A stretch of DNA of 64,000 nt from contig NZ_JBBAYJ010000010.1 in the NCBI RefSeq assembly GCF_037153975.1, positions 1-64,000 of the forward strand, read 5' to 3'. The notes under the pieces are model-generated. The model saw only the letters and a list, made by a program, of their open reading frames with translations, was not told where the DNA came from and did no database searches. This document shows positions 6,264 through 46,879 of this stretch, piece after piece; position 1 is the first letter of the stretch; the number at the start of each line of letters is the position of its first letter. The stretch comes from Aquipuribacter sp. SD81. Its GTDB lineage: Bacteria; Actinomycetota; Actinomycetes; Actinomycetales; JBBAYJ01. The position numbers were made by a program, and so were the translations under genes.

Positions 6264-8720
6264 TCAGGGTCGGCCGTCGACCAGCGGGACGTCGGGCTCG
6301 GCCGACGCCCACGACGGGAGGTCGACAGCCCCGGCCTGGAGCGGTCGGGGCCGGTCCTGGTGGTGCAGCCGGACCGCGACGAGCGCGACGTCGTCCCGGC
6401 CGCGCTCGGGCAGCATGCGCGCGAGCACCTCGTCGCACAGCGCGTCCAGACCGTCCGCGACGTCACCGGCCGCCTGCGCGCGGGCCACGGCGGCCACGGT
6501 CGCCCGCAGCCGCTCGAGCCCGGCGTCGAGGCCCTCGCGGCGCCGCTCCACGAGCCCGTCGGTGTAGAGCAGCACGGTCGAGCCACGCGGCACCTCGGCC
6601 GTGTGCTCGCCACGGTCGACGTCGGGGTCGACCCCGAGCAGCAGGTCGGCGCCGGCGTCCGGCGCGTGGAGGAAGCGGGCCCCGCCGTCCTCGTCGAGCA
6701 GGACGGGGGGCGGGTGGCCCGCGTTGGACCAGCGCAGCGTGGTCACGCGCCGTTCCACCTGCTCGGCGTCCTGCTCGAGCCGAAGGACCACCGCCGTGAC
6801 GGTGGGACCGACCTCGAGCGCGCGGACCGCCCTGTCGGTGGCCCGCAGCACGCCCGCGGGTCCCTCGCCCGTCATGACGGCTGCTGCGCGCACGAGCGTC
6901 CGCACCTGTCCCATGGCGGCGGCCGCGTCGGTGTCGTGGCCGAGCACGTCGCCGATGACGAGCACCGTCGCCCCGGGCGGCTGGAGGAAGGCGTCGTACC
7001 AGTCGCCGCCCACCTGCGCGGCCGCCGCGGCGGGCACGTACCGCACGACGACGTGGGCGTGGTCGGGCTCGGGAGGCGCGGTGAGCAGGGCTCGCTGCAG
7101 CTGCTCGGCGATCCGCACCTGCTGCTGCGCCGCGGCGACCGCGTCGACGACGATCCCCGCGCGGTCGGCGACCGCGCGCACCAGCGACACGACCTCGGGG
7201 GTCGGGCCGCTCGCGCCCAGTGCGGTGCGCGTGTCGACGGGGTCGACCCCGAGCTCTTCCACCGGGCTGGCCCCGAGCCGCGCTCCCGCTGCCACCGAGG
7301 CGCCGGAGGCGTCCGCTCGGTGCGCGGGCGCCGCGTCCCAGCACAGGCTCACCATGCCGAGGGTCCGGCCGCGGGCCACGACCGGGACCATGAGGGCCGA
7401 CTCCGGGGCGAGCGCCTCCAGCGCGTGCACCGCCGGGTGGGGCGGGTGCGTGGGGAACGTGTCGCGCACCGCCGCCGTCGCCCCGGAGGCGATGACGCTG
7501 GGTGCGCCGTCGAGCAGCGCCCGCGCCATGTACGGCGACACGGTCGGCACCGGCGAGGACCGGTAGGCGTCGAGGCGCGCGGCCGCGTAGCGCTCGACGT
7601 CACCCACCCGGGCCGGGTCGCGGTGCGCGACGGCGACGTCGTGCATCCGCTGCAGCCGGGCGGCCGCACGCACCCGGTCGGCGGTCTCGTCGAGGACCGA
7701 CGTCGCCTTCCGCCGTCGTGGGTCGTGCGCGCCGTCCGGGTCGTCGACGGCGCCCTCGACGACCGTCACGACCGCCCAGTCCGCGACGGCCGGCACGAGC
7801 AGTCCGGCGAGCGCGGCGAGTGCCTCCTCGGCGTCGGCCACGCCCGCGAAGAGCTCCCCGGCCTCGGCGAGCAGCTCGGCGCGCCTGAGAGCGACCTGCG
7901 CGTCGCGCTGGGCCCGCACCCTCACGGTGATGTCGGTGAAGTACAGCGCGACGCCGTCGCCCTCCGGGGTGGCCCGCACCTCGTACCAGGCGTCCAGCGG
8001 CGGCGGGTAGTACGCGTCGAAGCTGACGGGGCGGGCCGAGTCGCGCGCCCGGCGGTAGCCCTCCTCGAAGGCGGTGCCGACCGTCTCGGGGAACAGCTCC
8101 CAGATGGTGCGCCCGACGAGGGCCTCGCGGCTGCGTCCGAGGGCGGCGACGGCGTGGGCGTTGACGTGCGTCACCCGCCAGTCCGCGTCCATCGCGAGGT
8201 AGCCGACGACCATCGACTCGGTGATGTGCTCGATGCGCGCGGAGGAGCGCTGCACCTGCGCGGCGAGCTCGGTCTCGACCGTCACGTCGTCGACGACGAC
8301 GCACAGGCCCACGACCTCCCCGTCGCCGGGGAGCTCCTGCCCCTCGGGAGCCCGGGCCCGCGGCAGCCGGATGGGGTGGAAGGCGAGGTCCCAGTGGCGC
8401 CGGTCCCCCGGCCGGGCGCTGACCTCGCCGGACAGCCGGACGCCTCGCATCGGCTCGCCGCCGGCCATGACCTGCCGGTACAGCGTCTCCGCCTGCTCGC
8501 CCACCTCGCCGTTCACCTCCGCGGGCGTGCGGCCTATGAGCTCGTCGGCGTCGCGCCCGTTCATCTGCGCGAGCACGGCGTTGACGCGCACGTGCCGGCA
8601 GTCGCGGTCGAACACGCCGATGCCGAGGGGGGCGTTGGCGAGCAGCGTGTCGAACGTCGCCGCCAGGCGGCTCAGGTCCTGGGTCGGCACCCCGGGAGTG
8701 TCCCAGCCCGACGCGTCCAC
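6264..8720 (-). CDS. PAS-PAS-GAF PP2C-type (RsbU/SpoIIE) serine phosphatase
   Basis: An 818-residue cytoplasmic sensor phosphatase. PAS1 covers about 15-150 and PAS2 about 160-270, a GAF domain about 280-465, and an RsbU/SpoIIE phosphatase domain about 540-785. Phosphatase signatures include GGDWYDAF (571-578), GDVLGHDTDAA, SNAGHPPP, LLYTDGLVE and RDDVALV, so the metal-binding acids are present. In this family the enzyme dephosphorylates an anti-sigma-factor antagonist (RsbV type) and releases a stress sigma factor. No RsbV or RsbW is adjacent. It is the last of four same-strand regulatory genes, with 166 bases separating it from the next. Confidence 0.9.
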   Translation of the reverse strand: MDASGWDTPGVPTQDLSRLAATFDTLLANAPLGIGVFDRDCRHVRVNAVLAQMNGRDADELIGRTPAEVNGEVGEQAETLYRQVMAGGEPMRGVRLSGEVSARPGDRRHWDLAFHPIRLPRARAPEGQELPGDGEVVGLCVVVDDVTVETELAAQVQRSSARIEHITESMVVGYLAMDADWRVTHVNAHAVAALGRSREALVGRTIWELFPETVGTAFEEGYRRARDSARPVSFDAYYPPPLDAWYEVRATPEGDGVALYFTDITVRVRAQRDAQVALRRAELLAEAGELFAGVADAEEALAALAGLLVPAVADWAVVTVVEGAVDDPDGAHDPRRRKATSVLDETADRVRAAARLQRMHDVAVAHRDPARVGDVERYAAARLDAYRSSPVPTVSPYMARALLDGAPSVIASGATAAVRDTFPTHPPHPAVHALEALAPESALMVPVVARGRTLGMVSLCWDAAPAHRADASGASVAAGARLGASPVEELGVDPVDTRTALGASGPTPEVVSLVRAVADRAGIVVDAVAAAQQQVRIAEQLQRALLTAPPEPDHAHVVVRYVPAAAAAQVGGDWYDAFLQPPGATVLVIGDVLGHDTDAAAAMGQVRTLVRAAAVMTGEGPAGVLRATDRAVRALEVGPTVTAVVLRLEQDAEQVERRVTTLRWSNAGHPPPVLLDEDGGARFLHAPDAGADLLLGVDPDVDRGEHTAEVPRGSTVLLYTDGLVERRREGLDAGLERLRATVAAVARAQAAGDVADGLDALCDEVLARMLPERGRDDVALVAVRLHHQDRPRPLQAGAVDLPSWASAEPDVPLVDGRP

Positions 8721-8886
8721 CGGAAACGGACGGCGGCGTGGCGTCGCGGCCCGCGGGCGGTGGCCCCCGGCCGCGCACGACGCTCAGCCTGCACGTGACC
8801 GAGGACGTCACGAAGGAGATGACGCGGTCGGCCGCCGACGCCCCGGACGTCGACCTCGCCGCCCGGGCGCAGCGTCTGGCCCAGGC

Positions 8887-10710
8887 TCAGGCGCCTGGGT
8901 CCCTGCCCGCGACCGGCCCCTCGGGGCGCACGCCGTCGACGACGTCCCGGGCGACGTCGCGGAGCTTGCGGTTGCTCGTCCTCGACCGCACGCGCAACCA
9001 GGCGAAGGCCGCGTCGGCGTCGAGCCCCTGCGTCGCGACCACCACACCCTTGGCCTGCTCGATGACCGCCCGGCTCTCCATGGCCTGCAGCAGCTGCCGC
9101 CGCTCCCGCACCAGCCGCTCCCACCTCGCCGCGTCGACCAGCGCGGGCTCCATCCGGCGGGCGAGGGCGAGGAGCGCCGCCTCGTCCGCGGCCGTGTAGG
9201 CGGCGGGGCCGTAGAGCACGAGCGAGAGGGTCGGGGAGTCGGGCACCGGCACCTCCCCCGGCGGGCCGACGGGCAGCGGGCCCACCTCGGCGGGGCCGAC
9301 CGGCACGGCGAGGCAGCCCTCCACCCCGCGCCGGTGCGCCGCCGCGGCGAAGTCCGCCCACGACGCCGCGGTCACGGAACCCGGGCCCGTGCCGTCGACG
9401 GGGCGGACCACGTGGCCGGTGAGGGCCGCGCGCCGGCCGGGACCGCCGTCGTCGTACTGCCGCTCGTCGAGCGCGGCGGCCGGCGGGCCGTCGAGCACCA
9501 CCGCGTCGAGCCGGGCGCCGACGACGACCGTGACCGACGCCGCCAGCGTGCCCGGGACGACGTCCCTCGCGGCGACGGCGGCGTCCCGCAGCACGCGCGA
9601 CAGGGGCCGGCGGCCCACCGGCTCCCACGCCCGTGCGGGCTCCGGCGGGGGGTCGGCCGGCCGCAGGCGCAGCACGGTGGCGTCGGTGCGCCGCCGGCGC
9701 TTGACCGCGTACATGAGGAGGTCCGCGCGGTGCCAGGTCCGTCCCAGCGGCTCACCGGCCTCGCGCACCGCCGCCCCGGTGGACGCCCCGATGCCGTGAC
9801 CGGCGAGCCCTCGGCGCACGCGCGCGGTCAGGTCGTCGAGCCTGGCCGCCGACGTGAGCACCGCGAACTCGTCCCCGCCGCAGCGGGCGACGACGTCGCC
9901 GGGGCCGACCGCCGCGCTCAGCAGCTCCGCCACCTGCCGGAGCAGGCGGTCGCCGGCCGCGTGCCCGGACGCGTCGTTGACGGCCTTGAGCCCGTCGAGG
10001 TCGAGGACGAGCACGGCCGCGGTCCCGCCGGCAGGGTCCTCGGGACCGCCGTTGTCGACCACGAGCGCGCGGTACCAGCCGCGGCGGTTGCGCAGCCCGG
10101 TGAGCACGTCGGTGCAGGCCTGCTCGCGGGCGGCGGCCGCCTGCTCGCGGTGGGTACGGAGCTCCGCGAGCAGCGACGAGCCCGAGACGTCGCCCGCCGC
10201 CACCTCCACCAGCGCCCCGAGGACGCCGGCGGTCAGGCCGAGGGCGGCGACGGCGGCGGCCAGAGCCGGGTCGTGACGGTGCCGCGAGACCCCGGTCACG
10301 GCGCCCCACAGGCCGTCCGGGCCGGTCACGACGGCACCGGCGTAGGAGTGGGTGCCGCGGCGCCGGTCCGCGCCGACCGTGGCGTACGCCGGCTCCTGCT
10401 CGACGTCAGGACACCACGAGGGTGCCCCGGCGGCCAGGGCGAGGGCGAGGGAGCCGAGCCACGGCGTCCGCGTCCCGACGGACGGAGGGTCGGGCTGCCG
10501 GCCCGAGGCCGCGACCACCACCTCGTTGGCCCCGTCGAAGCGGCTGACGAGCCACAGGTCGGCGGGCCAGCGCTCGTGCAGGCCGGTCACGAGCGCCGCG
10601 GCCGGGCTCGTCAGCAGCTGCGTGAGGGGCGCCTCGAGGACGGCCTCGCCCGACGGGCCGGCCCCAGGAGGTCGTGGCGTGGTGTCCGCGAGGTGGCCGG
10701 TCTCGTCCAC
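8887..10710 (-). CDS. GAF-GGDEF-GAF-ANTAR hybrid: diguanylate cyclase with RNA-binding domain
   Basis: A 607-residue four-domain protein. An N-terminal GAF-like sensor (about 30-170) leads through a helical linker (180-200) to a GGDEF domain (about 200-345) with TDVLTGLRNRRG, DLDGLKAVNDASGHAAGD and an intact GGDEF signature at 278-282. No RxxD inhibitory site is visible at the usual position before it, where the residues read GPGDVV. A second GAF-like region covers about 370-530. An ANTAR domain (about 540-593) with SRAVIEQAKGVVV and a final SNRKLRDVARDVV closes the protein. ANTAR domains bind paired-hairpin RNA and block termination. Joining one to a c-di-GMP synthase suggests a protein that both makes a second messenger and controls transcript elongation. 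Confidence 0.9.
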   Translation of the reverse strand: MDETGHLADTTPRPPGAGPSGEAVLEAPLTQLLTSPAAALVTGLHERWPADLWLVSRFDGANEVVVAASGRQPDPPSVGTRTPWLGSLALALAAGAPSWCPDVEQEPAYATVGADRRRGTHSYAGAVVTGPDGLWGAVTGVSRHRHDPALAAAVAALGLTAGVLGALVEVAAGDVSGSSLLAELRTHREQAAAAREQACTDVLTGLRNRRGWYRALVVDNGGPEDPAGGTAAVLVLDLDGLKAVNDASGHAAGDRLLRQVAELLSAAVGPGDVVARCGGDEFAVLTSAARLDDLTARVRRGLAGHGIGASTGAAVREAGEPLGRTWHRADLLMYAVKRRRRTDATVLRLRPADPPPEPARAWEPVGRRPLSRVLRDAAVAARDVVPGTLAASVTVVVGARLDAVVLDGPPAAALDERQYDDGGPGRRAALTGHVVRPVDGTGPGSVTAASWADFAAAAHRRGVEGCLAVPVGPAEVGPLPVGPPGEVPVPDSPTLSLVLYGPAAYTAADEAALLALARRMEPALVDAARWERLVRERRQLLQAMESRAVIEQAKGVVVATQGLDADAAFAWLRVRSRTSNRKLRDVARDVVDGVRPEGPVAGRDPGA

Positions 10711-10783
10711 TCGTTCTCCCGGGCTCGCTCGTGCGTCGGAGCAGCCGGGTCCGGGGCCGTGGGGACCGAGGGTAGGGCACGCC

Positions 10784-10799
10784 GCACCCCGCGGGGTGC
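10784..10799. repeat. 16-bp perfect palindrome between regulator genes
   Basis: GCACCCCGCGGGGTGC is a perfect palindrome just downstream of the GAF-ANTAR gene start side and upstream of the GGDEF-ANTAR start. It could be an operator or the core of a transcript hairpin. The lack of a loop makes it a poor terminator. Confidence 0.35.
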
Positions 10800-10807
10800 A
10801 GGGACGC

Positions 10808-11530
10808 TCAGGACGCGGCGGGCCCGTCCGGGACGAGCGTGCCGTCGATCACCTGGCCGGCGACCTGGGTGAGCGGCAGGCCGCGACCCCGCGCGTGCAA
10901 GCGCATCCGCCGGAACGCCTCCTCCAGGCTGACGCCGGCCCGCTCGGAGAGCATCCCCTTCGCCAGCTCGACCTGCACCCGGCTGTGCAGCGCGTACTGC
11001 AGCTGCTCGCTCAGCACGGTCTGCTCCTGCAGGCTCCGCTCCTGCAGGAGCCCGATGGTCGCGACGTCCGCCATCGCCTGCCCCACCTGGAGGTCCTCCT
11101 CGCTCATCCGCTGATCCGCGTCGGTGAAGAGGTTGAGCGCGCCGATGACCCGCCCCCGCAGCCGCATGGGCAGGGCGTGCGTCGAGCCGAACCCGGCTGC
11201 GAGCGCGGCCTCGGTGAAGCGGGGCCACCGCTCGCGGGCGTCGGCCAGGCGCACGTTGGCGACCGCGACGCCCGTCTCGAAGCAGTCCCGACAGGGCCCC
11301 TCGTCGATCTGCAGCTCGAAGGTCTCCAGGTGCCGCATGCGCTCCAGCGTCGAGGCCATGAGCCGCAGGCCGCCCCGCTCGTCGGCGAGCATGAGCCCGG
11401 CCGCGTCGGCCCCGAGCAGCTCGACGCTGCGCTCGGCGAGGACCTGGACGAAGTCCACGATGTCGAAGCGCTCCACCAGCGTGTCCGCCAGCTCCACGAA
11501 GACCGACGCCAGACGCACGGTGCTGTTCAT
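10808..11530 (-). CDS. GAF-ANTAR transcription antiterminator
   Basis: A 240-residue regulator with a GAF sensor domain (about 5-165) and a C-terminal ANTAR domain (about 170-230). The GAF segment carries DEGPCRDCFETG and PRFTEAALAAGFGSTHALPMRLRGRVIGALNLF, the form common to actinobacterial GAF-ANTAR proteins. The ANTAR part reads LHSRVQVELAKGMLSERAGVSLEEAFRRMR. Such proteins bind two-hairpin leaders and prevent termination. ATG 11530 follows a strong GGAGGT six bases away. The 5' leader holds an unusual CTG/CAG-rich run. Confidence 0.9.
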   Translation of the reverse strand: MNSTVRLASVFVELADTLVERFDIVDFVQVLAERSVELLGADAAGLMLADERGGLRLMASTLERMRHLETFELQIDEGPCRDCFETGVAVANVRLADARERWPRFTEAALAAGFGSTHALPMRLRGRVIGALNLFTDADQRMSEEDLQVGQAMADVATIGLLQERSLQEQTVLSEQLQYALHSRVQVELAKGMLSERAGVSLEEAFRRMRLHARGRGLPLTQVAGQVIDGTLVPDGPAAS

Positions 11531-11539
11531 GGGGACCTC

Positions 11540-11595
11540 CTGCTGCTCCTGGTGCTGCTGTTGTCGCTGCTGCTGCTGCTCTTGCTGCTGCTGCC
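11540..11595. repeat. CTG/CAG trinucleotide-rich run in a gene leader
   Basis: About 56 bases read as imperfect tandem CTG on the + strand, equivalent to CAG on the transcribed sense of the GAF-ANTAR gene, ending roughly 10 bases before its start codon. It lies in the leader rather than in a supported coding region. Such runs can slip in replication or alter ribosome access; an effect here is inference. Confidence 0.8.
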
Positions 11596-11633
11596 CTGCG
11601 GTCCGGCTGCCCGCCCCGGTGGGCCGCCGCCCC

Positions 11634-12413
11634 TCACCCGTCGTCCTCCGGCGCGAACGTCGTGGCCCGCGCCAGCACGTCACGGGCCACGTCGACGACC
11701 GGTCGGCCCGTGCCGAAGGCCCGCGCCCGCAGCAGCACGAGCGCCTGCGCGAGGCCCACCCCCGCCTGGACGGCGACCACGCCGGTGGCCTGGTGCACCT
11801 CCGCGCGGTCGTCGAGCAGCACGAGCGGCGCCGGGGTGTCGTCGCCGTGAGCGCCGGGGCCGGCGCTGTCCCGCACCTCGTCGAGGGCGTCGGGACCCAC
11901 GCCGCCGTCGCCGTCGCCGGCGGACTGCACGTGCAGCACCACGGTGAGGGCCGCCTCGGCGAAGTCGAGCGCGCACTGCAGCTCCTCCGCGTCCAGCCCG
12001 CCCGGGCGGTCGCGGTACAGGTCGAGCACGCCGAGCGCGATCGCCCCCACCCGCAGCGGCAGGGCGAAGACGGCGTGGACGCCGCGGTCGAGCGCCTCGG
12101 GCACGAACCCCGGCCAGCGCGCGCGCACCCCGGAGCGCTCCAGGTCGGGCAGCAGCACCGGTCGCCCGGTGTGCGCGGCCTCGACGCACGGGCCCTCCCC
12201 GAGGGTGAACTGAAGGTCCTCCATGCCCTGCGCGAGGCGGTCCGAGGCGGCGACCACCCCGACCGGCTGCCCGCGGTCCATGATCACCAGTCCGACACCG
12301 CTGACCGGCAGCCGGCGGGCGCAGGCGTCGACGAGCTGGCGGACCAGCGGCACCGCCGAGCGCCCGCTCACGTCGAGGCCCGCGAGGATGCGGGCGACAG
12401 CCACCGACGGCAT
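11634..12413 (-). CDS. GAF-ANTAR transcription antiterminator
   Basis: A 259-residue GAF-ANTAR protein, paralogous to its downstream neighbour. The GAF domain (about 10-165) shows VSGVGLVIMD, LGEGPCVEAAHTGRPVLLPDLE and HAVFALPLRVGAIALGVLDLY. A Gly/Asp-rich linker (about 165-190) joins it to the ANTAR domain (about 195-250) with EVHQATGVVAVQAGVGLAQALVLLRARA. The ANTAR first helix departs from the common AKG form (it has ATG in that place). It is the first gene of the four-gene same-strand series, with 103 bases to the next. Confidence 0.88.
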   Translation of the reverse strand: MPSVAVARILAGLDVSGRSAVPLVRQLVDACARRLPVSGVGLVIMDRGQPVGVVAASDRLAQGMEDLQFTLGEGPCVEAAHTGRPVLLPDLERSGVRARWPGFVPEALDRGVHAVFALPLRVGAIALGVLDLYRDRPGGLDAEELQCALDFAEAALTVVLHVQSAGDGDGGVGPDALDEVRDSAGPGAHGDDTPAPLVLLDDRAEVHQATGVVAVQAGVGLAQALVLLRARAFGTGRPVVDVARDVLARATTFAPEDDG

Positions 12414-30845: not shown

Positions 30846-31652
30846 GTGCCCGCCCGACCGTCCCCCACCGACCACCGGGGTCCTCCCGGCGGTGGGGCGG
30901 GCACGGGAGGCACGGGCCGGGACGGCACGACGCCGTCGGCGGCGGGTCCGGCCCGCGGGACGCCCCGGCGGCCGCTGGACGGTGACCGCGCGCTCGTCGT
31001 CGGCGGCGAGCGCGGCCTCGGCCGGCACGTCGTCGCCGCGCTCGCCCGGGCCGGTGCGGACGTGGCCGTGGCCTACGACCTCGACCGCCCCGACGCCCAC
31101 GACGACGCGCGCGAGGCGGAGGACCTCGTGACGAGGTCCGGGCGCGCGGGACTGCTGCTGCCCGCCGACCTCACCGACCACGCCCGGTGCCACCAGCTCG
31201 TCGGCGACACCGTCGAGCACCTCGGCGGCCTCGACGTGCTCGTGCACGTCGTGACGCCGGAGGAGACCGCGTCCGGCGCGGCCGTGCGCGACGTCGAGCC
31301 GGCGGCCTGGCGGCGGACGTGGGCGCTCCTCGTGGACTCCCTCGTGCACACCACGACCGCGGCGCTCGACCCGCTCGCGGGTGGCGGGAGGCTGCTGACG
31401 ACCGCCCGGCCACCGGCCGGCGCCCGGTCCGGGGAGCCGCTGGGGCCGCGTGTGGCCGCGGCCGCGGTCGAGGAGCTCTCGCGCGCCCTCGCCGAGCAGC
31501 TCGCCGGCACCGGCACGCGCGTCGTGTGCGTCGTGCCCGCACCCGGCGCCGACGTCGACCTCGTCGCGGAGGGGTACGTCCGGCTCGCCGCGCCGGGCGA
31601 GGGGCCCGCGCCGGCCGGACCCGTCGTCGTCGGGCGCCCGGCGCCGTCGTGA
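30846..31652 (+). CDS. Short-chain dehydrogenase-like protein lacking catalytic residues
   Basis: A 268-residue protein with a disordered first 45 residues followed by a Rossmann fold: ALVVGGERGLGRHVVAALARAGADVAV (cofactor loop GGERGLG at 53-59), LLLPADLTDHARCHQLV and VEHLGGLDVLVHVV. The SDR catalytic set is missing. The NNAG segment reads VHVVTPE, and the Ser/Tyr-x3-Lys region is replaced by TTARPPAGARSGEPLGPRVAAA. It may bind a nucleotide as a sensor or partner rather than catalyse. It follows sigF by 15 bases and is coupled to cheR by GTGA. Confidence 0.85.
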   Translation: MPARPSPTDHRGPPGGGAGTGGTGRDGTTPSAAGPARGTPRRPLDGDRALVVGGERGLGRHVVAALARAGADVAVAYDLDRPDAHDDAREAEDLVTRSGRAGLLLPADLTDHARCHQLVGDTVEHLGGLDVLVHVVTPEETASGAAVRDVEPAAWRRTWALLVDSLVHTTTAALDPLAGGGRLLTTARPPAGARSGEPLGPRVAAAAVEELSRALAEQLAGTGTRVVCVVPAPGADVDLVAEGYVRLAAPGEGPAPAGPVVVGRPAPS

Positions 31653-32515
31653 CCCAGGCTGCGGGGGTGCGAAGTCCCTCGAGCGGCCGCCCGGCCCCGC
31701 CGGTGTCCGAGGCGGCCGTGCTGCGCGACGTCGTGGCGGCCGTGCGCTCGGTGACCGGGGTCGACCTCACCGGGTACCGGGCGGAGACCGTCCTGCGTCG
31801 CACCGCGCAGCACGCGGCGGCCGCCGGTGGCGACGTGCGGGACTTCGCCGCGGGCCTCGCCGGGGACCCGGTCCGGGCGCGCGCGCTGCTGGAGGCGGTC
31901 CTCGTGCAGTGCACGGGCTGGTTCCGTGACGAGCGGACGTGGCAGGTCCTCGCCGAGGAGGTCCTCCCGCGCCTCGCGGCCGGCGGCCGCCCGCTGACCG
32001 CGTGGTCGGCCGGGTGCGGCGACGGCCGGGAGGTGTGGTCGCTCGCCTCCCTGCTGCAGGTCGTCGCGCCCGATCGGTGGCGGCTGGTGGCGAGCGACCT
32101 GTCGGGGACGGCCCGCCTCGCCGCCGCGGCCGCCGTCTACGCCGGCGGACCCGTCGTCGGCGACACGCACGCCGCGACGGTCCTCGGCGCGACCGCGGAG
32201 CGCGGGCCGGGCGGCTGGCGGGTGGGCGCGGCCCTGCGGAGCCGGGTCACCGTGCTCCGCCACGACGTGCGCACGCCACCGCCCGACGCGGTCGGCCCGG
32301 CCGGCTGCGACGTGCTGCTGTGCCGGAACGTGCTCATGTACCTCGACGACAGCGAGCAGGAGCGGGCCCTGGACCACCTGCTCGGGGCGCTGCGCCCGGG
32401 CGGGGTCGTCGTGCTCGGCGAGGCCGAGGTCGCGCTCGGCCACCGCGACGTGCTCGTACCGGTCGACCTCGCCGCGCGGGTCTACCGGCTCATCGCGACG
32501 CCGGTGGCCGGCTGA
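31649..32515 (+). CDS. CheR-type methyltransferase
   Basis: A 288-residue protein matching CheR: an N-terminal helical domain (VTGVDLTGYRAETVLRRTAQHA), GWFRDERTWQVLAEEVLP, the SAM site WSAGCGDGREVWSLASLL and the end block DVLLCRNVLMYLDDSEQERAL. CheR methylates glutamates on chemoreceptors. In actinobacteria stand-alone CheR-like proteins occur in signalling clusters without chemotaxis genes, as here beside SigF. GTG 31649 overlaps the SDR-like stop. The 3' end overlaps the convergent PAS-GAF-ANTAR gene by 26 bases. Confidence 0.9.
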   Translation: MTQAAGVRSPSSGRPAPPVSEAAVLRDVVAAVRSVTGVDLTGYRAETVLRRTAQHAAAAGGDVRDFAAGLAGDPVRARALLEAVLVQCTGWFRDERTWQVLAEEVLPRLAAGGRPLTAWSAGCGDGREVWSLASLLQVVAPDRWRLVASDLSGTARLAAAAAVYAGGPVVGDTHAATVLGATAERGPGGWRVGAALRSRVTVLRHDVRTPPPDAVGPAGCDVLLCRNVLMYLDDSEQERALDHLLGALRPGGVVVLGEAEVALGHRDVLVPVDLAARVYRLIATPVAG

Positions 32516-33797
32516 CCTCCTCCACGAGCAGCCGCGCGACGTCACGCACCTTCACGTTGCTGCGCCGGCTCGTGGTGACGAGCTGGGCGAAGGCCTCGTC
32601 GGCGCTGCACCCGCCGCGGCTCATGAGGACGCCCTTGGCCTGCTCGATGACCGCGCGAGAGGCGAGCGCCTCGCGCAGCTGCGCGCTGAGCGTCGTGAGC
32701 TCGGCGCGGTCGCGCGTCTCCTGCACGACGGCGAGCACCGCGGCGACGAGCAGGTCGGCCACCCGGCGGTCGCGCGGGCCGAACGCGTCGACGTCGCGGC
32801 CGTAGACGTTGAGCACGCCCAGCGAGTGCCGTTCGGTGCGCAGGGGCAGGCCGAGGACCGACGCCACCCCGACGTCGGCGGCCAGCTCCGCGAGGCGCGG
32901 CCACCGGGCGTCCTCACGGAGGTCGTCGGTCTCCTGCGCGCGGCCGGTGCGGTACGCCTGCAGGCACGGGCCGTCGCCGGCCTGCAGCTGCGCGCCGTCG
33001 ACGGCCTGGGCGAAGGCGTTGTCGGTGGCCTGCTCCTGCGGCTGCTCGGGCGGGCCGAGCGTGATGCTCACGCCGTCGCAGGCGGGCATGGCCTGCTCCA
33101 CGAGCAGGGCGGCGCGGGCCAGGAGGCGGCGCGTGTCGTTGTCGACCTGCAGCGGCAGCCGGCACATCTCGGCGAACGCCTCCGCGGTGCGCACGTCGTC
33201 GCGGTCCGCCGGGTTCGCCTCGCCGCGTCCGCCGACCCACGTGACGGCGCCGTCCTCGGGGTCGCTGGCCGCCACGAGGTCCACCGTCGTGGAGCGGCCG
33301 TCCGCGTCGGGCAGCCGCAGGGTGACCCGCTGCGTCGCCCCCCGTCCGCGCACCCGCTCGACGGTGCCCGCGACGAGGCGCCGGTCGTCCTCGGCGACGA
33401 GCTCGGTGAGCGGCCGCTCGAGCACCTCGTCGCGCCGCCGGCCGACCAGCGACCGGGCCGCGCCGTTGAGGTCGACGAGCACCCCGTCGGGGTCCGTGAC
33501 GAGGACGGGGACGGGCAGCCCGTTGAGCAGCGCGCGCCGCCAGCCGCCGGGGCTGTCGCGCTCCGCGAGCAGCTCGTCGATGCGGCTCTGCTGCGCACGC
33601 AGCTCCTGCTCGGCGACCCGGAGCTCCTCGTGGGCGACGTCGATCTCGTCGAGGACGCCTCCGAGGTCGGCGGTGTCCGAGCCTTCGCCGGTGAGCCCCT
33701 GCACCCGCCGGCGCTGCTCCTCCACGCCCGCGAGCAGCTCGGCCGCGGTCGAGCTGCCGGAGCGCTCTCCCGGCTCCGAGGACCTCGCCGTCACCAC
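32490..33797 (-). CDS. PAS-GAF-ANTAR antiterminator
   Basis: A protein of about 435 residues. A coiled-coil-prone N-terminus (EEQRRRVQGL, DVAHEELRVAEQELRAQQSRIDELL) precedes a PAS domain (about 95-215) with LPVPVLVTDPDGVLVDLNGAA. A GAF domain (about 240-375) has AGDGPCLQAYRTG and SVLGLPLRTERHSLGVLNVYG. The ANTAR domain (about 375-430) has LASRAVIEQAKGVLMSRGG and SNVKVRDVARLLV. GTG 33797 is the likely start, since no ATG exists near the conserved part. It faces the sigF operon and is the fourth ANTAR protein of the window. Confidence 0.9.
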   Translation of the reverse strand: MVTARSSEPGERSGSSTAAELLAGVEEQRRRVQGLTGEGSDTADLGGVLDEIDVAHEELRVAEQELRAQQSRIDELLAERDSPGGWRRALLNGLPVPVLVTDPDGVLVDLNGAARSLVGRRRDEVLERPLTELVAEDDRRLVAGTVERVRGRGATQRVTLRLPDADGRSTTVDLVAASDPEDGAVTWVGGRGEANPADRDDVRTAEAFAEMCRLPLQVDNDTRRLLARAALLVEQAMPACDGVSITLGPPEQPQEQATDNAFAQAVDGAQLQAGDGPCLQAYRTGRAQETDDLREDARWPRLAELAADVGVASVLGLPLRTERHSLGVLNVYGRDVDAFGPRDRRVADLLVAAVLAVVQETRDRAELTTLSAQLREALASRAVIEQAKGVLMSRGGCSADEAFAQLVTTSRRSNVKVRDVARLLVEEVSRPPASR

Positions 33798-33853
33798 CGG
33801 ACCATGGTCGCAGCGGGTGTTTGGGGTGTCGAGCGCGGGGGTAGTCGCCCGGT

Positions 33854-34378
33854 GTGAGCCAGCCGCACCCGCCGGCGCACGCCGCGCCGCGCCAGGACGG
33901 GGACGACCCGGGCCCGGCACCGGGTCGCGACGAGGACGAGTTCGAGCGGCTCGACCGCAACTACAACGAGCTGCTGCAGGAGCTGCGCGTCACGCAGACG
34001 GGCACGCAGATCCTCTTCGCCTTCCTCCTCACGATCGCCTTCACCCGCGAGTTCCAGGAGCGGGACGAGTTCACGCACGCCGTCTACGCGGTGACGCTCG
34101 TGGCGTGCGCGGTCGCCACGTCGCTCCTCATCGCGCCGGTGGCGCTGCACCGGACGGTGTTCCGCCGCGGGCTCAAGGAGGACATCGTCAGCTGGACGAA
34201 CCGGGCTGCCATCGCGGGCGTGTACGTGCTCATGCTCGCGGTGGTCGGCGCCCTCGTCATCGCCCTCGACGTCGTCATGTCCCGCGGGCTCGCGCTGGGG
34301 GTGGCAGGCGCCGTCACCGTCGTGACGGTAGGGCTGTGGGTCGTGCTGCCGGTGACGCTGCGCGTCCGCGGCCGCTGA
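33854..34378 (+). CDS. DUF6328-like membrane protein
   Basis: A 174-residue protein. An acidic N-terminus leads to FERLDRNYNELLQELRVTQTGTQILFAFLLTIAF, the conserved start of this family of four-helix membrane proteins. Further helices are YAVTLVACAVATSLLIAPVA, VYVLMLAVVGALVIALDVV and VTVVTVGLWVVLPVTL. An RTVFRRGLKEDIV loop lies between helices two and three. Function unknown. GTG 33854 is used; an overlapping GTG at 33852 is out of frame. Confidence 0.8.
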   Translation: MSQPHPPAHAAPRQDGDDPGPAPGRDEDEFERLDRNYNELLQELRVTQTGTQILFAFLLTIAFTREFQERDEFTHAVYAVTLVACAVATSLLIAPVALHRTVFRRGLKEDIVSWTNRAAIAGVYVLMLAVVGALVIALDVVMSRGLALGVAGAVTVVTVGLWVVLPVTLRVRGR

Positions 34379-45817: not shown

Positions 45818-46879
45818 GTGCGGGCCGTCCCCCGGCAGGGCGGCGGCGCGCGGGTGACGGCCGAGGACGCCGTCCGGGCAGTGCTCTCCGACCCCTCGCT
45901 CCTCACGGTCGTCGCGCAGCCGCTCGTCGACCTCACGACGGGCGGGGTGGCCGGCTACGAGGCGCTCGCGCGCGTGCCGGCGGAGTGGGACGTCGCCCCC
46001 GACAGGCTCTTCGCGGCCGCGCACCGGCTCGGGGGCTCGGCCGCCCTGCAGGCGCACGTCTGCGAGGCGGTCCTGCGCCTGCTGCCCGAGCTGCCGGGCG
46101 ACACCTTCCTCACGGTCAACGTCGACCCCGGCGACCTCGTCGCGGCGGGGGCGGTCGCGCCGCTGCTGGCCCGGCGCTCTCTCACCCGCCTCGTCGTGGA
46201 GATCACCGAGCACGCGTGGCCCGACGACACCGCACCGGTCGACGAGGTGGTGGCCCGGCTGCGCGCCGCGGGCGCGCTCGTCGCCGCGGACGACGTGGGG
46301 GCCGGCTACGCGGGGTTGCACCAGCTCATGCGGCTGCGCCCGGACATGGTGAAGGTCGACCGCGGGCTCGTCCGCGAGCTCGGCGACGACCCGGCCGCCG
46401 AGCTGCTCGTGCAGGTCCTCGGCGAGCTGTGCAGCCACCTCGACGCGTGGGTCGTCGTGGAGGGCGTCGAGACCGAGACCCAGCTGGCCGCGCTCGCCCG
46501 GCTGGGCGTGCCGATCGGCCAGGGCTGGCTGCTCGGTCGTCCCGCCGCGCCGTGGGCGGGCTGCGCGGACCCGGAGCTGGTGCGGCGACGCGCGCGCATG
46601 GCCCGGGTGGAGGACACCGTCGCCTCGCTGCTGGACACCGCGCCGCTGGGGCACGTGCGCGACGACGTGGGGACGTACTGGCTGCTCGGTGACGACGGCG
46701 CGGTGCGCGCGACCGTCATGGCGCCCTCGACCCCGGTCGTGGACGCCGCGCAGCGCGCCGTCGCGCGCGGTCCCCGCGAGCGGTGGTCGCCGTTGCTCGT
46801 CACCAGCCGGACCGGCGAGGTGCTCGGGCACGTGCGGGTCGAGTCGCTCGTGACCGCGCTCGCCCGCGCGGCGCGCTGA
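45818..46879 (+). CDS. EAL-domain c-di-GMP phosphodiesterase
   Basis: A protein of about 353 residues (341 if the GTG at 45854 is used). The EAL domain fills residues 15-250 and keeps its catalytic set: YEAL, the Asn of FLTVNVDP, Glu of VVEITEH, AADDVGAGYAGL (DD), the Lys of DMVKVDRG, EGVETETQ and IGQGWLLGRP. The loop-6 sequence DDVGAGY replaces DDFGTGY. The last 90 residues form a small unassigned domain (VGTYWLLGDDGAVRATVM, WSPLLVTSRTG). It would degrade c-di-GMP and could balance the GGDEF-ANTAR enzyme. Confidence 0.88.
   Translation: MRAVPRQGGGARVTAEDAVRAVLSDPSLLTVVAQPLVDLTTGGVAGYEALARVPAEWDVAPDRLFAAAHRLGGSAALQAHVCEAVLRLLPELPGDTFLTVNVDPGDLVAAGAVAPLLARRSLTRLVVEITEHAWPDDTAPVDEVVARLRAAGALVAADDVGAGYAGLHQLMRLRPDMVKVDRGLVRELGDDPAAELLVQVLGELCSHLDAWVVVEGVETETQLAALARLGVPIGQGWLLGRPAAPWAGCADPELVRRRARMARVEDTVASLLDTAPLGHVRDDVGTYWLLGDDGAVRATVMAPSTPVVDAAQRAVARGPRERWSPLLVTSRTGEVLGHVRVESLVTALARAAR

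Follow-up and report, generated by a model that had tools for sequence, protein, structure and literature searches.

A GAF-GGDEF half and a GAF-ANTAR half joined in one open reading frame of Aquipuribacter sp. SD81, a candidate two-output sensor

Can a single bacterial protein make a second messenger and also act on RNA? The question is raised by one gene of Aquipuribacter sp. SD81, located in a window of 64,000 nucleotides (the whole stretch of DNA analysed here), in which an earlier note had read one 607-residue chain holding GGDEF and ANTAR domains and two GAF regions. We found a single uninterrupted frame of exactly this length; it runs on the minus strand, which the earlier note did not state (Table 1). 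When the full chain is searched against Pfam, GGDEF and ANTAR are the matches beyond the 1e-3 level of significance and there is nothing else. Both score far over the curated cut-offs (84.5 bits against 23.8 for PF00990, and 68 bits against 27.3 for PF03861), so that the proposed architecture is supported and the C-terminus is indeed scored by the domain model as ANTAR. A profile search of the whole genome returned the same two domains (GGDEF at C10:9688-10116, ANTAR at C10:8938-9096). The plus-strand reading of 8887-10710 was rejected, as Pfam yields no family there. An antisense open reading frame on that strand (8738-9199) overlies the 3′ end of the gene; its first part is protein-like, and it is probably a chance product at such GC content. 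On balance we favour the view that a complete GAF-GGDEF cyclase has truly been fused to a complete GAF-ANTAR regulator, giving what would most likely be a homodimeric cytosolic sensor with two outputs.

Table 1. Features of the fusion gene and its neighbours (positions in the window).
Feature	Coordinates	Strand	Details
PAS-PAS-GAF-SpoIIE (PP2C-type) phosphatase gene	6264..8720	-	downstream
Fusion gene	8887..10710	-	607 aa; GTG start 10710; stop 8887-8889; Shine-Dalgarno-like GGGAG 10716-10720
ANTAR domain	8938..9096	-	residues 539-591; Pfam PF03861, E 6.1e-19
Second GAF domain	9121..9615	-	residues about 366-530; from similarity to GAF-ANTAR proteins and model
Junction between halves	9616..9687	-	residues 342-365; frame unchanged
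GGDEF domain	9688..10116	-	residues 199-341; Pfam PF00990, E 9.2e-24
GGDEF signature motif	9865..9879	-	residues 278-282
Lost I-site	9895..9906	-	residues 269-272; GPGD in place of RxxD
First GAF-like domain	10201..10614	-	residues about 33-170; from similarity to relatives
GAF-ANTAR gene	10808..11530	-	immediately upstream; likely ATG start 11530 after AGGAGG
Second GAF-ANTAR gene	11634..12413	-	upstream neighbour, same strand as fusion

Judged from its alignments, the gene is a head-to-tail join of two complete, otherwise separate proteins, a GAF-GGDEF half (residues 1 to about 345) and a GAF-ANTAR half (about 366-607). Both halves align over the parental length, and stand-alone relatives end, or begin, near the junction. 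Among actinobacteria, proteins related to one or the other half are common. Those of the N-terminal half are of two types: stand-alone proteins, mostly ending 4 to 16 residues past the GGDEF match, and longer chains that continue into GAF and EAL. Both types align with the fusion over GAF and GGDEF at about 32-40% identity, but none carries ANTAR; in our alignment of 28 sequences (A3), 14 have EAL and the window protein is the only one with ANTAR. Relatives of the C-terminal half are GAF-ANTAR proteins of 230-256 residues, counted from the chosen start codon (the rule used assigned no start to one of them, L050). The stand-alone proteins of Kineococcus rubinsiae and K. siccus (L031 and L032) resemble the entire C-terminal half at about 37-41% identity and share its LDERQY and NRKL motifs; they differ in having no GGDEF, and the GAF of the fusion has gained an insertion and no longer has the Cys that most relatives carry in their GPC motif.

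Of the two GAF regions read by the earlier note, neither is called by Pfam in the fusion chain, both being too diverged. The second nevertheless stands on its relatives and on a model: Pfam recognises GAF_2 in 15 of the 16 sequences aligned for the C-terminal half, BLAST of residues 357-530 matches only the GAFs of GAF-ANTAR proteins (best E 6e-19), and residues 355-533 of the AlphaFold model resemble solved GAF domains with Z about 12, among them DosS GAF-A (Z 12.3 over 131 residues). We assign to this region a predicted GAF fold together with family similarity. The first region has pLDDT below 50 over residues 1-145, and the evidence for GAF there is similarity to relatives that score as such. 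BLAST of residues 1-190 finds first-GAF regions of GGDEF proteins (best E 1e-11), Pfam finds GAF in the corresponding N-terminal stretch of two relatives (L006 and L016), and 23 of the 28 aligned N-half members score as GAF, a count that includes GAF matches elsewhere in the longer proteins. Since the second GAF matches those of GAF-ANTAR proteins and none of the EAL type (second GAFs of EAL proteins gave no BLAST match at E up to 1), the gene is best explained as two whole proteins fused; the same comparison ruled out an exchange of EAL for ANTAR in a GAF-GGDEF-GAF-EAL parent.

The combination had been described as not known to be a standard architecture, and our searches agree with its rarity. 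Protein searches of three overlapping sets of actinobacterial genomes (396, 395 and 296, drawn from order, class and phylum) matched both halves in one chain in the home genome only, with the best 3 to 5 candidates scored per genome, so that a divergent fusion could be missed. Among plasmid records, no location spanned 80% of the query. Of 172 loci scanned with profiles, 111 had ANTAR frames; once copies of the window locus are left out about 105 remain, which include some long frames chosen from the phylum of L033 (Ideonella), and at none of them does GGDEF share the frame with ANTAR. Within the genus, the orthologous fusion locus was not found in the two other genomes examined; contig C70 of G035 has a GAF-ANTAR gene next to SpoIIE phosphatases, with GGDEF absent. 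One candidate second fusion (G184:C505, matching residues 22-486 with four internal stops) proved on closer inspection to be the N-terminal half alone. At another locus (L157, G1217:C43:13000-15300) GGDEF and ANTAR frames lie on opposite strands, as neighbours with no fusion. A literature search confined to open full text found no paper describing an ANTAR-GGDEF chain. The fusion is a new architecture built from known domains, seen in one genome.

Such a distribution also suits the explanation that the fusion is a young accident, in which each half still does what it did as a separate protein and the shared chain adds nothing. Absence from every other genome searched, including the two of the same genus, fits this view, as do the short junction and the full parental length kept in each half; conservation that would show maintenance of the fusion is absent. 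However, signature residues are intact in both halves, and both need dimers, which one chain would link. We consider the accident rather unlikely.

The earlier note held the GGDEF motif to be intact and saw no RxxD inhibitory site, and both observations are borne out. A PDB search with this domain matched diguanylate cyclases (E down to 3e-18). The catalytic and substrate-binding signature is complete, with DLDGLKAVND at 237, GHAAGD at 249, GGDEF at 278 and YAVK at 334. Within the motif itself, G279 and D280 are invariant in alignment A3 and G278, E281 and F282 nearly so. Other positions that are invariant or nearly invariant across the 28 aligned sequences are also kept in the fusion (D201, T204, R209, D237, N245, G249-H250, G253-D254, R276, K337). 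At the position of the lost I-site, RxxD is present in 20 of the 27 listed rows of relatives, among which a few genes appear twice with different locus ids. The I-site is common in diguanylate cyclases and is neither required for activity nor defining of it. The N-terminal half has the appearance of a diguanylate cyclase and would be expected to synthesize c-di-GMP.

It could be argued that the GGDEF domain is not an enzyme but a GTP-sensing input domain for ANTAR. Regulators with degenerate GGDEF domains usually lose the catalytic signature, and here the signature is complete. We find this role improbable, despite the precedent of degenerate GGDEF domains that regulate elsewhere, such as CdgI and CsrD in E. 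coli (PMC5635695), and despite a Pfam score below that of most relatives scanned and the missing I-site.

The ANTAR half is best understood by comparison with NmPAL of Nakamurella multipartita, a light-sensing protein that binds RNA hairpins (PMC11381354). NmPAL is both the closest solved ANTAR structure (PDB 6hmj, E 5e-10) and the top Foldseek match; its sensor, on the other hand, is of the LOV/PAS type, and it has no GGDEF. The modelled ANTAR of the fusion is a three-helix bundle set on a coiled-coil helix (helices 507-561, 565-578 and 583-591), with pLDDT mostly 84-96 across residues 521-590, and it reads SNRKLRD, identical to NmPAL. Mapped through the alignment with 6hmj, Arg142, Glu146, Lys149 and the aromatic character of Tyr164 of EutV are kept, as Arg547, Glu551, Lys554 and Phe569, and the equivalents of Glu160, Met172, Asn173 and Arg175 are altered. 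Alanine changes at several of these EutV positions weaken or abolish binding (PMC8934654). NmPAL itself has Ala at the Glu160 position, also differs at Met172, Asn173 and Arg175, and shares the following NRK with the fusion. RNA binding of a PAL-like kind is plausible on the strength of these residues. As for what such binding would do, the statement that ANTAR proteins control transcript elongation is not universal: in engineered circuits NmPAL is able to govern the initiation of translation (PMC11381354), and PMC8164766 describes actinobacterial ANTAR systems as acting on translation or transcription. Putative targets did not stand out in the window, where a dual-hexaloop scan gave 2 matches on one strand and 1 on the other, numbers at chance level given the 0 to 5 of shuffled sequences; an Rfam search found nothing.

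Two further explanations concern the joint between the halves. It is very improbable that two overlapping or adjacent genes are read as one because a stop codon was lost to a miscalled base; both parents do occur as separate genes in other genomes and the source assembly is a draft of 69 contigs, but the two parent genes were adjacent in none of the loci tested, and a single frame stays open through the joint. A frameshift, which the earlier note had named as a possible sign of two genes, left no trace: frame-specific GC3 is 0.90-1.00 in all full 40-codon blocks of the gene and 0.95-1.00 in the blocks flanking the joint, with joint-spanning blocks continuous, a measure that argues against a frameshift and does not exclude substitution of a stop codon. 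Equally hard to credit is production of the GAF-ANTAR half also on its own from an internal GTG start near residue 365. GGGAG does precede this in-frame GTG at the junction, but by 3 nt, which is closer than a Shine-Dalgarno site usually lies.

Under the favoured reading of a two-output sensor, the need for dimers is what could hold the two halves together functionally. GGDEF catalysis requires a dimer, in which two half-sites meet. For EutV, stable RNA binding requires ANTAR dimers (PMC8934654). Given both needs, one GAF-controlled dimer could set both outputs. We hypothesize that GAF-driven dimer formation or reorientation would bring the two GGDEF half-sites together, leading to c-di-GMP, and that the same dimer would pair the ANTAR helices for binding to an RNA stem-loop; loss of the I-site may free the cyclase from the usual product feedback. 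The AlphaFold model was built from a seven-row alignment and is poor at residues 1-145 and 306-357, with low confidence in the GGDEF half. Were both halves active, the making of a second messenger and the post-initiation control of specific transcripts would be joined in a single protein; until now such a connection has been known from separate proteins. Direct biochemical testing of the fusion protein meets no evident obstacle.

A bolder version can be drawn by analogy, in which c-di-GMP made by the GGDEF domain acts locally on the second GAF and gates the ANTAR of the same dimer, giving a self-contained c-di-GMP-to-RNA switch; we regard it as a doubtful extension of the two-output sensor. 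Its model is mycobacterial PdtaS, where c-di-GMP is reported to act via GAF, upstream of the ANTAR regulator PdtaR (PMC11537054). The likeness is that a GAF domain connects c-di-GMP with an ANTAR protein; unlike the single chain described here, PdtaS and PdtaR are two proteins linked by phosphotransfer, with the cyclase located elsewhere. E. coli offers another likeness, with DosC/DosP and PNPase in the degradosome placing a cyclase beside RNA machinery (PMC5635695), but that is a protein complex and not a fusion, and it involves RNA processing instead of ANTAR binding.

The genome that harbors the fusion has 35 GGDEF, 29 EAL and 7 ANTAR matches by profile search, and the numbers of the first two indicate that c-di-GMP signalling is in place in the host. 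Four of the seven ANTAR matches fall within the window (8938-12413 and 32523-32684), three of them in adjacent same-strand genes, that is, the fusion gene and its upstream neighbours. Between the nearer of these neighbours and the fusion gene lies the palindrome GCACCCCGCGGGGTGC (10784-10799); reading on along the strand of the gene, we saw no run of T behind it. Genome-wide, ANTAR scores best (4.5e-23) in a 476-residue open reading frame at 32490-33920 on the minus strand, with a PAS-GAF front as read by eye. Convergent with it is an open reading frame at 31187-32515 on the plus strand, with a CheR methyltransferase-like reading. Further along the window, at 45902-46543 on the plus strand, an EAL match lies inside an open frame of 393 aa.
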